Part shown: piece after piece, positions 57,774 through 61,807 of the stretch
Numbering within the stretch: position 1 is the first letter of the stretch
Layout: each line of letters opens with the position of its first letter
Assembly (NCBI GenBank): GCA_020852515.1
Contig: JADZAS010000016.1
Coordinates: 374,155 to 438,154, forward strand
Origin: Phycisphaerales bacterium
GTDB lineage: Bacteria > Planctomycetota > Phycisphaerae > Phycisphaerales > UBA5793
DNA length: 64,000 nucleotides
Direction of reading: 5' to 3'
The notes under the pieces: model-generated
The model's input: the letters and a program-made list of their open reading frames with translations, nothing else
Databases searched by the model: none
What the model was told of the DNA's origin: nothing
Program-made: the position numbers and the translations under genes

Positions 57774-58406
57774 TCACTCAACCCCCTGGCGGCCGATGAT
57801 CGCGTCCGCGAGCACCGCCTTGCTCGCGTATTCGATCTGCGAGCCGCTGGGCAGGCCGCGCGCCAGGCGGCTCAGTTTCACGCCCCGGCTCTTGAGTTGT
57901 TCGGCCAAGTACAACGCCGTGCCGTCGCCCTCCAGGTTCGGGCTCAGGCCGAAAATCACTTCCGCGATCCGCACGCCGCACGCGTTGCCTGCGGGGTCAT
58001 CCACGCGCTTGAGCAGCGCGCCGACCGTGAGATCTTCGGGTTCGATACCATCGAGGGGCGCGATGTGGCCCAGCAGCACGTGGTAGCCGCCGCGGTACAT
58101 CCCCGTCTGCTCGAGGCTGATAAGGTCCTTGGGCTGCTCAACCACGAGTACGGTCTGGTGCTCGCGCCGCGGATCGCTGCAGATCGGGCACGGATCGCGG
58201 TCGGCGAGGTTGTAGCAGATCGAGCAGTGCTTCACGTGCGTCTTGACGTCGCTGATCGCCTGGGCGAGTTTCATCGCCGTCGCCCGATCGCTCTTGAGCA
58301 CGTGAAAGGCGAGGCGCTCAGCGCTGCGCCGCCCGATGCCGGGCAGGTTGGCGAACTCATCGATGAGCCGCACCATCGAATCGGGATACGGGCCGCTTCG
58401 GTCCAT
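57774..58406 (-). CDS. recR: RecR, recombination mediator protein
   Basis: RecR works with RecF/RecO to load RecA on gapped DNA. The 210-residue product has a helix-hairpin-helix (NLPGIGRRSAERLAFHVL), the four-Cys zinc site CSICYNLADRDPCPIC, and a Toprim domain (VLVVEQPKDLISLEQTGMYRGGYHVLLGHI...LDGI). The length is normal. ATG 58406 is chosen. In most bacteria recR follows dnaX and ebfC directly; here it lies on the same strand but a secreted-protein gene of opposite direction separates it from them. Confidence 0.96.
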   Translation of the reverse strand: MDRSGPYPDSMVRLIDEFANLPGIGRRSAERLAFHVLKSDRATAMKLAQAISDVKTHVKHCSICYNLADRDPCPICSDPRREHQTVLVVEQPKDLISLEQTGMYRGGYHVLLGHIAPLDGIEPEDLTVGALLKRVDDPAGNACGVRIAEVIFGLSPNLEGDGTALYLAEQLKSRGVKLSRLARGLPSGSQIEYASKAVLADAIIGRQGVE

Positions 58407-58581
58407 GGGCCATTGTATTCGCAGCCTTGCGCCCGCCATTGGCCGGCGGCCACTTCGCTTCAATTACCGGCCCTTGCAGGCAGATTTTCGTCACTTCGGG
58501 GTGCCGTTCCCTCTCTGGGGCTCCCGCCGCGCGTTAGAATGTACCGCCACCTTCGGTTCACCGTCTCGAGAGGAGAGAATC

Positions 58582-59622
58582 ATGCGGATCTGCTATCTCA
58601 ATCGCCTGGCGCTTGCTGCCGCCACCACCCTCACCCTTGGCATCGCCGGCAGCGCCCTGGGCCAGCTGAGCGAGTACTACCTTCACTCCGGCGACCAGGA
58701 CACGTTCACCGTCGTCCAGAATGGATCGATCCTGCGGCAGTGGAATCTCGCCCCCGGCACCGATCGCTACCAGTATCCGATGGTCGTTCGAGACACGGTT
58801 CGCACCATGGGCGCGGACGTCGGCGACATCGGCGCCGACTACAGCCTGACAGGCGTCGATCTCGGCCCTCGCTATACCCATCCCGAAGGCACATCGCGCT
58901 GCTGGGACGGCGCGACCGACGGCACGCACAACTACTCCATCGACACCGCCGGCGTGGTCTGGCAGTTCGATGGCGACTGGACCAATCCGCTGCGCCTCTT
59001 CACCGCCGGCGGCATCGGCGCCCTGGCCTATGACACCGAGAACGACACCCTCTGGGTCGGCACGTTTTCAGGGTCGAATCTCACGCAGTACGACCTGAGC
59101 GGGAACATCATCAGTTCATTCACCACCGGCCACACCAAGAACATGGCCGTCGCGATCGACCCGGCCGACGGCACGCTGTGGATTCACGATCGAAATCGCC
59201 AGGGCACCCTCGAACAGTGGTCGCGCAGCGGTTCGTTGCTCAACACCGTTGTCGTGCCGGGCCTGGAAACGCAGAACGCGCTCGCGGGCGAGTTCCAGTT
59301 CGGCGGCGGCGGCTACTCGCTCTCGCTCAGCGGCCAGTGCCCCGGCACCATCCGCGTCACATGGAACAACGCGCCGCCGCAGACGCAACAGGGCATTGTC
59401 TTTGCGCGCAACACCGGCTCGTTCGTGATTCCCAACGGCCCGTGCCAGGGAACGCAACTGGGCCTGGGGACGAGCCAACTGCAACTCGTCAATACGGTCG
59501 CCACGGGCAACGGCTCAGGAAGTGTGAACGGTCAGGCCGGCACCGGCGCCTGCGGCGGGTACCTGCAACTCGTCGCAGTGGAGAGTCCATGCGAGACGAG
59601 CAACGTGGCTCAGTTGCCGTAA
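58582..59622 (+). CDS. Secreted beta-propeller-like protein, unknown
   Basis: A 346-residue exported protein. The signal peptide (LALAAATTLTLGIAGSALG, cut near residue 27) is followed by repeats of the type LWVGTFSGSNLTQYDLSGNII and AIDPADGTLWIHDRNRQGTLEQWSRSGSLL, reminiscent of a WD/NHL-like propeller. The C-terminal ~110 residues, with paired Cys (GQCPG and GACGG), look like a planctomycete surface-protein module. The start has AGGAGAG. It lies on the plus strand inside a minus-strand DNA-repair block and has its own terminator. Confidence 0.75.
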   Translation: MRICYLNRLALAAATTLTLGIAGSALGQLSEYYLHSGDQDTFTVVQNGSILRQWNLAPGTDRYQYPMVVRDTVRTMGADVGDIGADYSLTGVDLGPRYTHPEGTSRCWDGATDGTHNYSIDTAGVVWQFDGDWTNPLRLFTAGGIGALAYDTENDTLWVGTFSGSNLTQYDLSGNIISSFTTGHTKNMAVAIDPADGTLWIHDRNRQGTLEQWSRSGSLLNTVVVPGLETQNALAGEFQFGGGGYSLSLSGQCPGTIRVTWNNAPPQTQQGIVFARNTGSFVIPNGPCQGTQLGLGTSQLQLVNTVATGNGSGSVNGQAGTGACGGYLQLVAVESPCETSNVAQLP

Positions 59623-59655
59623 CCGGCAGCAACACCGGATAAATGAAAGGCGCAC

Positions 59656-59688
59656 AGACCCGCGGACTCGATCCGCGGGTCTTTGTTT
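59656..59688 (+). terminator. Terminator after the secreted-protein gene
   Basis: AGACCCGCGGA (59656-59666) pairs with TCCGCGGGTCT (59672-59682) around a five-base loop, followed by TTGTTT. It may also serve ebfC on the opposite strand, which ends at 59711, though the T-run on that side is weaker. Confidence 0.85.
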
Positions 59689-59710
59689 GCGCTTTCTATG
59701 TGTCGAGACC

Positions 59711-60094
59711 TCACTCCCCCAGCAGGCCGCCGAGGTCGGCGCCCGGGTCGATGGGCAGGCCGAGTTCGCGGGCGCGGCGGGACATCTCATCCGCCGCCAT
59801 GCGCTGCGCCTTCTCCATCGCCGCGTTGATCGCGCCGGCGATGAGGTCTTCAGCCATCTGTCGATCCGCGTCGCTGCCTGCGTCGATGAGGGCCGCGAAC
59901 ATCGCCGGGTCGATTTGGAGCGACGCCACGCGCATGGCGCCGGTAACGGTCGCCTTGACGGCGCCGCCGCCGGTTTCGGCTGAAGCCTTCATCGTCTTGA
60001 GTTTGTCCTGCACCTGCTTCATCTGCTCGCGCAACTGGCCGGCGTTGCGCAGCATGCTCGACAACTGCCCGAGATTCTTGAACTGGTCGAACAC
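59711..60094 (-). CDS. ebfC: YbaB/EbfC nucleoid-associated protein
   Basis: A small DNA-binding protein of the EbfC family, 127 residues. The family pattern is present: helical start LGQLSSMLRNAGQLREQMKQVQDKLKTM, the core GGGAVKATVTGAMRVASLQIDPAMF and the end helix (LIAGAINAAMEKAQRMAADEMSRRARELGLP). It lies just downstream of dnaX on the same strand, the usual pairing. The start is GTG with GGGAG at good spacing. Confidence 0.92.
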   Translation of the reverse strand: MFDQFKNLGQLSSMLRNAGQLREQMKQVQDKLKTMKASAETGGGAVKATVTGAMRVASLQIDPAMFAALIDAGSDADRQMAEDLIAGAINAAMEKAQRMAADEMSRRARELGLPIDPGADLGGLLGE

Positions 60095-60127
60095 GAGATT
60101 CTCCCGCAGCGCCGTGCGCTGAATGAG

Positions 60128-61807
60128 TCACTTTGATTTCCGCGGCGCGGGCTTCACATCCACGATGCGCGCGTCGAGAAGTTCCATCGCTTTGCGCACG
60201 ATCGGAATCTGCGCAGCCTGGGCGAACTGCGACGAAGACGGCAAGGCCGGACCGGGTCCGTGGCCGTTGGCGGCCGCCGCGGCGCTGGCGATCAATTCGA
60301 TGCGTACGGGCCGGCCCAGCGCCGAAGCGAAGATCTTCTCGATCGCGCCCAGGCAGGTCCGCGCGTAGGCGAGCAGCGAGCCGTCGTTGAGCGTGAGGCT
60401 GATCGACGGCCCATCGAGGCGCTGATCCCAACTCAGCGCATCGACCACCGGGCCGAGGCGGGCATTCCCATGCGCCTCTTCCACCACCTGCCGCCACACC
60501 TGCTCAGGATCGACATCTACGCGAGCGGCGGTCGGCGGCGGCGCCTCGGGCTCACTCGGGACCGGCGAGGCGGCGCTCCTGGCAGCCGTCGCAGCCGCCA
60601 GTTCGCTCAGTTTCGGCGGCGGTTCAGCGCGCTGTGGACTTTTTTTTTGAGTGGCGCCCGCGCTGCCAGCGCCGCTGAGGCGCCCGTCTCCAGCCGGGCT
60701 GCCCTTGAGCAGCGCCGCGGCGTCGGCGAACTTTTCGCTCAGCGCCAGCCGCACCACCGCCGCATCGAGCAGCGCCCGTCCCGTCACGCTCGACTTGATT
60801 GATCGCTGCACATTTTCAAGAAGCGCGATCATGTACACGAGGCCCGGTGCGTCGAAGCGGCCCGCCTGCGCTGCGATTTCCTCGCGTTCATCATCAGCCA
60901 GTTCGAGCAGTTCGCTCTCCACGCCGCACGCGCACGCGAGCATGAGCAGCCGCAGCCGATCGATGACGATCTCGATGAACTGATCGGGCGAGACGCCGCG
61001 ATTGAGCATCTCGTTCATCTGATCCAGCGCCGCAGCGGGCTGGCCATCGGCTACGGCCTCGACGAACTGGTGCACCAGCGCCTGGTCGGGCAGGCCGAGG
61101 GTCTCAGCGAGCATCTCGACCGTGATCGTCTTCTCGCCCTCGGAGAGCAATCGATCGAGCAGGCTCAGCGCATCGCGCATCGAGCCGTGCCCCAGCCGCG
61201 CCACCTGCAGCACCAGGCGTTCATCGGCCTTGACCTTCTCGCTTTTGAGCACCGCCCGCAGGTGCTCGGCGATGCGCTTGGTGGGGATCATGCGGAAGTC
61301 GAACCTCTGGCAGCGCGATTGGATCGTCGCCGGCACCTTGTGCGGCTCGGTCGTGCAGAGGATGAACTTCACGTGAGAGGGAGGCTCCTCCATCGTCTTG
61401 AGCAGCGCGTTGAACGCCTCGCGCGTGAGCATGTGCACTTCGTCGATGATGTAGATCTTGTACGGGCAGCGATTGGGACGGTAGATGCTGTTGGCGATGA
61501 GATCGCGAGCCTCATCCACGCCGCGGTTCGAGGCGCCGTCAATCTCGATGACATCGATGTCGCCGCCCTGCATGATCGCCTTGCCGATCGCCTCGGCGTC
61601 GGTGAGTTCGGGTGTGACGTTGAGCGCCTTGGCGAAGATGCGCGCCATCGAGGTCTTGCCCACTCCGCGCGTGCCGGTGAAGAGATAGGCGTGGGCGACG
61701 CGGTCGGACTCGATCGCCCGACTGAGCGTGCGCGCAATCGCCTCCTGCCCGATGACTTCATCAAAGTCCTGGGAGCGATACCGGCGAGCGAGAACGGTGT
61801 AGGCCAT
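60128..61807 (-). CDS. dnaX: DnaX, DNA polymerase III clamp-loader subunit gamma/tau
   Basis: DnaX forms the clamp loader of DNA polymerase III. The 559-residue product starts LARRYRSQDFDEVIGQEAIARTL, has Walker A GTRGVGKT at residues 45-52, the DEVHML box and SRCQRFDFR. The region where DnaX normally carries a Cys4 zinc module (after ...KALN) has no cysteines and is shorter. After the clamp-loader core (~residue 370) comes a Pro/Ala-rich linker and a tau-type tail (to 559). A run of nine A residues lies in the linker (60640-60648). ebfC follows 33 bases after the stop. Confidence 0.95.
   Translation of the reverse strand: MAYTVLARRYRSQDFDEVIGQEAIARTLSRAIESDRVAHAYLFTGTRGVGKTSMARIFAKALNVTPELTDAEAIGKAIMQGGDIDVIEIDGASNRGVDEARDLIANSIYRPNRCPYKIYIIDEVHMLTREAFNALLKTMEEPPSHVKFILCTTEPHKVPATIQSRCQRFDFRMIPTKRIAEHLRAVLKSEKVKADERLVLQVARLGHGSMRDALSLLDRLLSEGEKTITVEMLAETLGLPDQALVHQFVEAVADGQPAAALDQMNEMLNRGVSPDQFIEIVIDRLRLLMLACACGVESELLELADDEREEIAAQAGRFDAPGLVYMIALLENVQRSIKSSVTGRALLDAAVVRLALSEKFADAAALLKGSPAGDGRLSGAGSAGATQKKSPQRAEPPPKLSELAAATAARSAASPVPSEPEAPPPTAARVDVDPEQVWRQVVEEAHGNARLGPVVDALSWDQRLDGPSISLTLNDGSLLAYARTCLGAIEKIFASALGRPVRIELIASAAAAANGHGPGPALPSSSQFAQAAQIPIVRKAMELLDARIVDVKPAPRKSK
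60640..60648 (-). promoter_or_regulatory. A9 slippage site inside dnaX
   Basis: Nine consecutive A residues on the coding strand, codons 387-390 (CAA AAA AAA AGT). Adding one A, or a -1 frameshift, leads to a TGA five codons later (about 394 residues). Losing one A leads to a TGA after about 399 residues. Both products would be gamma-like, without the tau tail. Thermus makes gamma by transcriptional slippage at such a run. Confidence 0.6.

Follow-up and report, generated by a model that had tools for sequence, protein, structure and literature searches.

An A9 run just past the clamp-loader core of a Phycisphaerales dnaX gene as a probable slip site, in a class where recoding mechanisms appear to be interchangeable

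The dnaX gene of the 64-kb stretch of Phycisphaerales DNA analyzed here (hereafter the window) carries nine consecutive adenines soon after the region encoding the clamp-loader core, which raises the question of whether one gene delivers two proteins, the tau subunit of DNA polymerase III and a shorter, gamma-like form. The gene (60128-61807, minus strand, as are all dnaX features below) is a single open reading frame of 559 codons, whose zero-frame product is the full-length, 559-aa tau. Its N-terminal part was recognized by TIGR02397 (dnaX_nterm, 389 bits) and by PF13177, PF22608, and PF12169 over residues 3-366, and these NCBIfam and Pfam matches place clamp-loader domains I-III, common to the long and short forms, at residues 1-366 (60710-61807). 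Domain III (Pfam DNA_pol3_gamma3) ends at residue 366, and the A9 run starts in codon 387, about 20 codons later. This candidate slip site (60640-60648) reads tttttttttg on the plus strand from position 60640, corresponding to the sense codons ACT CAA AAA AAA AGT CCA (residues 386-391), and encloses the in-frame heptamer A_AAA_AAA, while A_AAA_AAG is absent. An additional A, or a -1 shift of the ribosome, is predicted to lead to a TGA five codons past the run (60624-60626) and a gamma-like product of 394 aa ending in ...QKKKSTAR; the loss of one A would lead to a TGA ten codons past the run (60607-60609) and a product of 399 aa ending in ...QKKVHSALNRRRN. A preliminary description of this DNA had put the run at exactly this position, just after the core, and had claimed that both one-base slips soon reach a stop; both product sizes were reproduced when we recomputed them from the sequence.

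What the short forms would lack is the tau-specific tail, i.e., the 170 residues after the run (60131-60639), consisting of a linker and a C-terminal domain. The folded part of this tail (60161-60511) was modelled with AlphaFold2 (mean pLDDT of 83). DnaA domain I (4tps, E 0.003) as well as the C-terminal domain V of E. coli tau (2aya, E 0.026; 5fku_E, E 0.029) came up as weak hits when the model was searched with Foldseek, so that it appears to resemble the DnaA-domain-I/tau domain V fold. Pfam gave a single weak match for the tail, below the cut-off (PF23007, E 0.0045). As to its surroundings, the usual dnaX-ybaB-recR cluster (57774-61807 of the window) is interrupted by a plus-strand open reading frame (58336-59622) encoding an apparently secreted protein of 428 aa, located between ybaB (59711-60094) and recR (57774-58463).

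The run is hardly a matter of chance, as had also been suspected from a first reading of the window. It is the sole A/T run of at least nine nucleotides in the window, where 0.0185 would be expected from base composition, and pattern searches for such runs in the whole genome of 4.72 Mb found only three, the other two falling outside any convincing gene. Furthermore, AAA accounts for 16% of Lys codons and CAA for 17% of Gln codons in five genes of the window, and the core of dnaX itself uses AAA once and AAG 12 times; under local codon usage, the probability of spelling Gln-Lys-Lys-Ser as an A9 run is about 0.002. Comparable figures were obtained in relatives: the only run of at least nine in genome G020 is the one in dnaX, no such run is present in the 2.8-3.6 Mb of each of five short-site relatives (G006, G007, G011, G012, and G028), and 400 kb of dnaX-region sequence from 129 genomes contained three runs of at least nine outside the slip sites.

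We then compared dnaX genes sampled from the order (60 genomes), the class (60 more), named planctomycete records, and elsewhere in the phylum. Conservation in close relatives, proposed earlier as a check, was borne out: all four genus mates have A9 or A10 at these codons, and past the run their -1 frame meets a stop after 4-5 codons and their +1 frame after 10. Tract length and frame are stable across the genus, with an in-frame compensation for the A10 of G003. At the level of the order, a long A-run or a heptameric slip site was found in 60 of 60 genes (59 relatives plus the window gene) at about codons 368-412, in the form of A7, A8, A9, A10, A12, G_GGA_AAA, or C_CCA_AAA, bearing in mind that homopolymer lengths in draft assemblies can be off by one. 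A9 or A10 is also present in most other families of Phycisphaerae and in some Planctomycetia (Gemmata, Schlesneria, and Aporhodopirellula); the cultured species Aporhodopirellula aestuarii (L108) has A10. Across these genes, the A-runs start in all three codon phases, which indicates that the nucleotide run is conserved and not the peptide that it encodes. The site is absent from four of five genomes of family f8, from f17, from two of four genomes of f19, from one f15 genome, and from most other lineages of the phylum. As several Phycisphaerae families do without the site, the need for a short form is not universal; the site-less Phycisphaerae are apparent losses of the two-product system. 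Their DnaX proteins (G062, G112, G171, and G166 in f8, G071 in f17, G122 and G132 in f19, and G069 in f15) are about 470-500 aa long.

Some further genes stand apart. The linker of one dnaX gene (L104) contains runs of C25 and C14 at about codons 404-414, past its A10 run, which are either an assembly artefact or a hypervariable tract. In the AT-richer family f66 (G253, G302, G331, G233, G345, G370, and G287), A8/A9 or G_GGA_AAA occurs in the tail region of dnaX at varied positions (codons 379-443), and these may or may not be slip sites. Outside the phylum, a Bacteroidetes (L116) and an Ignavibacteria (L163) metagenome-assembled genome carry A9 just past the clamp-loader core of dnaX; cases from Chlorobi are already described in PMC3711429.

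The frame of the tau tail relative to the core differs between relatives. In the window genus, tau lies in frame 0, while in G005, a member of the same family, the zero frame stops eight codons past A9 and +1 holds the tail. About 45 genes share this kind of layout, their zero-frame product being gamma with the tau tail out of frame. An iterative profile seeded with the window tail retrieved 118 of 123 planctomycete tails, in all three frames, with E values from 1e-43 to 6e-5, and by this similarity the out-of-frame tails are taken as true tau tails. In such genes gamma would be the default product and slipping the only route to tau. Automatic annotation of these species will probably take dnaX for a truncated gene or a pseudogene. 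At long runs tau is found in frame 0, -1, or +1, and at short sites only in 0 or -1. G033, with tau in frame 0 by homology, is an outlier in which neither alternative frame closes early. In genus g3 (G006, G011, G015, and G019, i.e., L058, L054, L066, and L064), the site reads G_GGA_AAA GCC TGA, with a stop one codon past the -1 slip site, an SD-like sequence upstream, a hairpin downstream, and a tail frame of only 69-78 codons in -1; it looks like an E. coli-type frameshift site with the default product reversed.

The planctomycete dnaX genes in which a site was found, 129 in total, were divided into 99 with long runs (A9-A12) and 30 with short sites (A7/A8, G_GGA_AAA, or C_CCA_AAA), the boundary between A8 and A9 having been chosen after the data were seen, though A8 occurs in just two genes of the set. 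The A7 and heptamer sites are all in X_XXY_YYZ phase, and the short sites end in AAA (A_AAA_AAA, G_GGA_AAA, C_CCA_AAA), never in A_AAA_AAG. The classes differ in the frame that a -1 ribosomal shift would not use: in genes with tau in frame 0 or -1, the median distance to the first +1 stop is 3 codons for long runs and 57.5 for short sites (p 9e-15), with the same direction in 5-6 of 6 phylogenetically independent pairs. In most long-run genes, every frame other than that of tau ends a few codons past the run. Of the 74 long-run genes whose tau lies in frame 0, 61 have stops in both other frames within about 12 codons, where 7.6 would be expected from the genes' own cores. When the protein was kept fixed and synonymous codons were resampled, the figures were 62 of 76 versus 9.1 expected (z 22.7), and this excess indicates that closure is selected at the nucleotide level. 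Within the window genus alone, conservation of the residues could account for both stops as a side effect; it is the wider class that supplies the strong statistics.

Stimulatory signals are divided in the same way. Anti-SD pairing peaks about 10-16 nt upstream of short sites (mean -5.7 kcal/mol versus a flat -2 at long runs), and the downstream fold has a shuffle z of -2.11 at short sites versus -0.19 at long runs (p 8e-9); E. coli dnaX gave z values of -2.84 (SD) and -2.57 (hairpin) in the same pipeline. Treated as binary traits in phylogenetically independent pairs, the SD and hairpin were not significant (6 pairs, low power), hence the strength of both signals rests on the whole set. Slippage of RNA polymerase, being two-way, would need both alternative frames closed, whereas one-way ribosomal -1 shifting would need stimulators and be indifferent to the +1 frame, and the data follow this division. 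The third frame, closed at long runs and open at heptamers, also offers a simple test between the mechanisms that uses nothing but sequence. The tRNA complement was considered as a cause of switching between mechanisms and rejected, as 15 of 16 relatives, drawn from both classes, were found to have tRNA-Lys CUU (at the cut-off used, G055 had only UUU). The presence of tRNA-Lys CUU fits the absence of A_AAA_AAG sites, and the window genome itself has both tRNA-Lys UUU and CUU.

The window gene fits the long-run, Thermus-like class of transcriptional slippage, with both alternative frames closed and no stimulators: no SD-like sequence was detected upstream of its A9 (-2.6 kcal/mol, z 0.1 versus the gene's own core), no hairpin downstream (shuffle z -0.2 and 0.13), and no Rfam match around dnaX. 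We therefore regard the A9 run, with a probability of roughly 0.8, as a programmed slip site through which dnaX would yield tau (559 aa) and a gamma-like protein of about 394-399 aa, most likely by slippage of RNA polymerase. The polymerase would slip on A9 as it does in Thermus thermophilus dnaX, producing mRNAs with 8, 9, 10, or more A's, and translation of the out-of-phase mRNAs would stop at the nearby TGA codons, giving the short forms; ribosomes slipping by -1 at A_AAA_AAA may contribute some of the 394-aa product as well. Thus, the suggestion that the run could yield a short gamma form by slippage gains from the retention of the site in relatives and from the closed alternative frames, while slippage itself, its efficiency, and a gamma-like action of the short form in the clamp loader are predictions from sequence.

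If instead the 394-aa form arose in the manner of E. coli dnaX, from ribosomes shifting to -1 at A_AAA_AAA, with RNA polymerase slippage playing a minor part, then the zero-frame heptamer and the -1 stop after five codons would be explained, and this would agree with the clear use of -1 sites with SD-like sequences and hairpins in sister families and with the SD-like sequences found upstream of the run in genus mates G002 and G003. However, the window gene lacks both an SD-like sequence and an unusual downstream structure, and its +1 frame is closed as well, which a -1 shift does not need and which the short-site genes do not have (the medians of 57.5 versus 3 codons above), so we consider this explanation unlikely. 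Phase variation, in which replication slippage at the tract would switch the dnaX frame in the DNA itself, could draw on the high mutability of homopolymers of 9-10, on the occurrence of both A9 and A10 within the genus, and on the different default frames of relatives. Yet it appears the least probable of all, given the constant tract length and frame in the genus with the compensated A10 of G003, the early closure of all non-tau frames past the run together with the hairpins and SD-like sequences at short sites, which are marks of recoding at the mRNA level, and the fact that short A7 and G_GGA_AAA sites are poor contingency tracts.

That the run merely encodes linker lysines, with no programmed second product, is scarcely more credible. 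The linker that holds the run is indeed poorly conserved, and linkers rich in lysine are common; but the gene uses AAG elsewhere, the phase of the run, and hence the encoded peptide, varies between genera, G_GGA_AAA or C_CCA_AAA stands in for the A-run in some genes, and the tau tails of the approximately 45 out-of-frame genes could be produced only by slipping. We consider this reading largely refuted.

A quick IQ-TREE phylogeny of 142 DnaX cores, from which the slip site was excluded, required at least 17 changes of site class (long, short, none) and 25 of tau frame by fewest-changes counting; many inner branches are weak, so that these counts are approximate, and the latter may shift by about one with the frame label of G033. 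It seems quite probable that Phycisphaerae dnaX has changed repeatedly between RNA polymerase slippage (A9-A12) and ribosomal -1 frameshifting (A7, G_GGA_AAA, C_CCA_AAA), each time with matching changes in whether the third frame is closed and whether an SD and a hairpin are present, that the default product (tau or gamma) has been swapped independently, and that what is kept is the two DnaX forms and not the mechanism. There is a long-standing debate over the need of bacteria for a short gamma form of DnaX. The maintenance of two forms despite many changes in mechanism and default frame would be strong, if indirect, evidence that both are selected, with gamma having a presumed function in these bacteria. 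It also constitutes a natural experiment in which close relatives can be compared to follow how a gene moves from slippage during transcription to frameshifting by the ribosome.

Among known systems, the closest is Thermus thermophilus dnaX, for which transcriptional slippage at A9, mRNA heterogeneity, and products in a 1:1 ratio were reported (Larsen et al. 2000, as cited in PMC1088944 and PMC5009743). Like the window gene, it has a sense-strand A9 past the clamp-loader core, encodes tau in the zero frame, and has near stops in both other frames; both organisms also have two tRNA-Lys species, which in Thermus have been linked to slippage (PMC5009743). The two belong to different phyla, and the Thermus products were measured, whereas those of the window gene are predicted. 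E. coli dnaX uses a -1 ribosomal frameshift at A_AAA_AAG with an internal SD and a hairpin (PMC5009743). It is the same gene with the same two products (predicted ones in the window), but the window gene has A9 without an SD-like sequence or hairpin, and the E. coli layout of SD-like sequence, heptamer, and hairpin recurs in sister families of the window genome. Of the two parallels drawn in the preliminary description, that with Thermus is therefore apt, while that with E. coli fails for the window gene and holds for its sister families. The third system is the two-ORF dnaX found by GeneTack, with tau obtained by recoding in 17 genes, nine of them with A10 (Antonov et al. 2013, PMC3711429). 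Its architecture, with gamma in the zero frame and the tau tail out of frame, is shared with the approximately 45 planctomycete genes, unlike the window gene, which has tau in the zero frame of one ORF; that paper favours transcriptional slippage for its poly-A cases, whereas the planctomycete short sites carry signals of ribosomal frameshifting. We found no paper on dnaX recoding in planctomycetes in the open-access literature searched, and earlier mention of some cases is possible. Slippage of the Thermus type, frameshifting of the E. coli type, and two-ORF dnaX are already described (PMC1088944, PMC5009743, PMC3711429), and what looks new in comparison with them is that mechanism and default product have apparently been exchanged again and again inside a single bacterial class.
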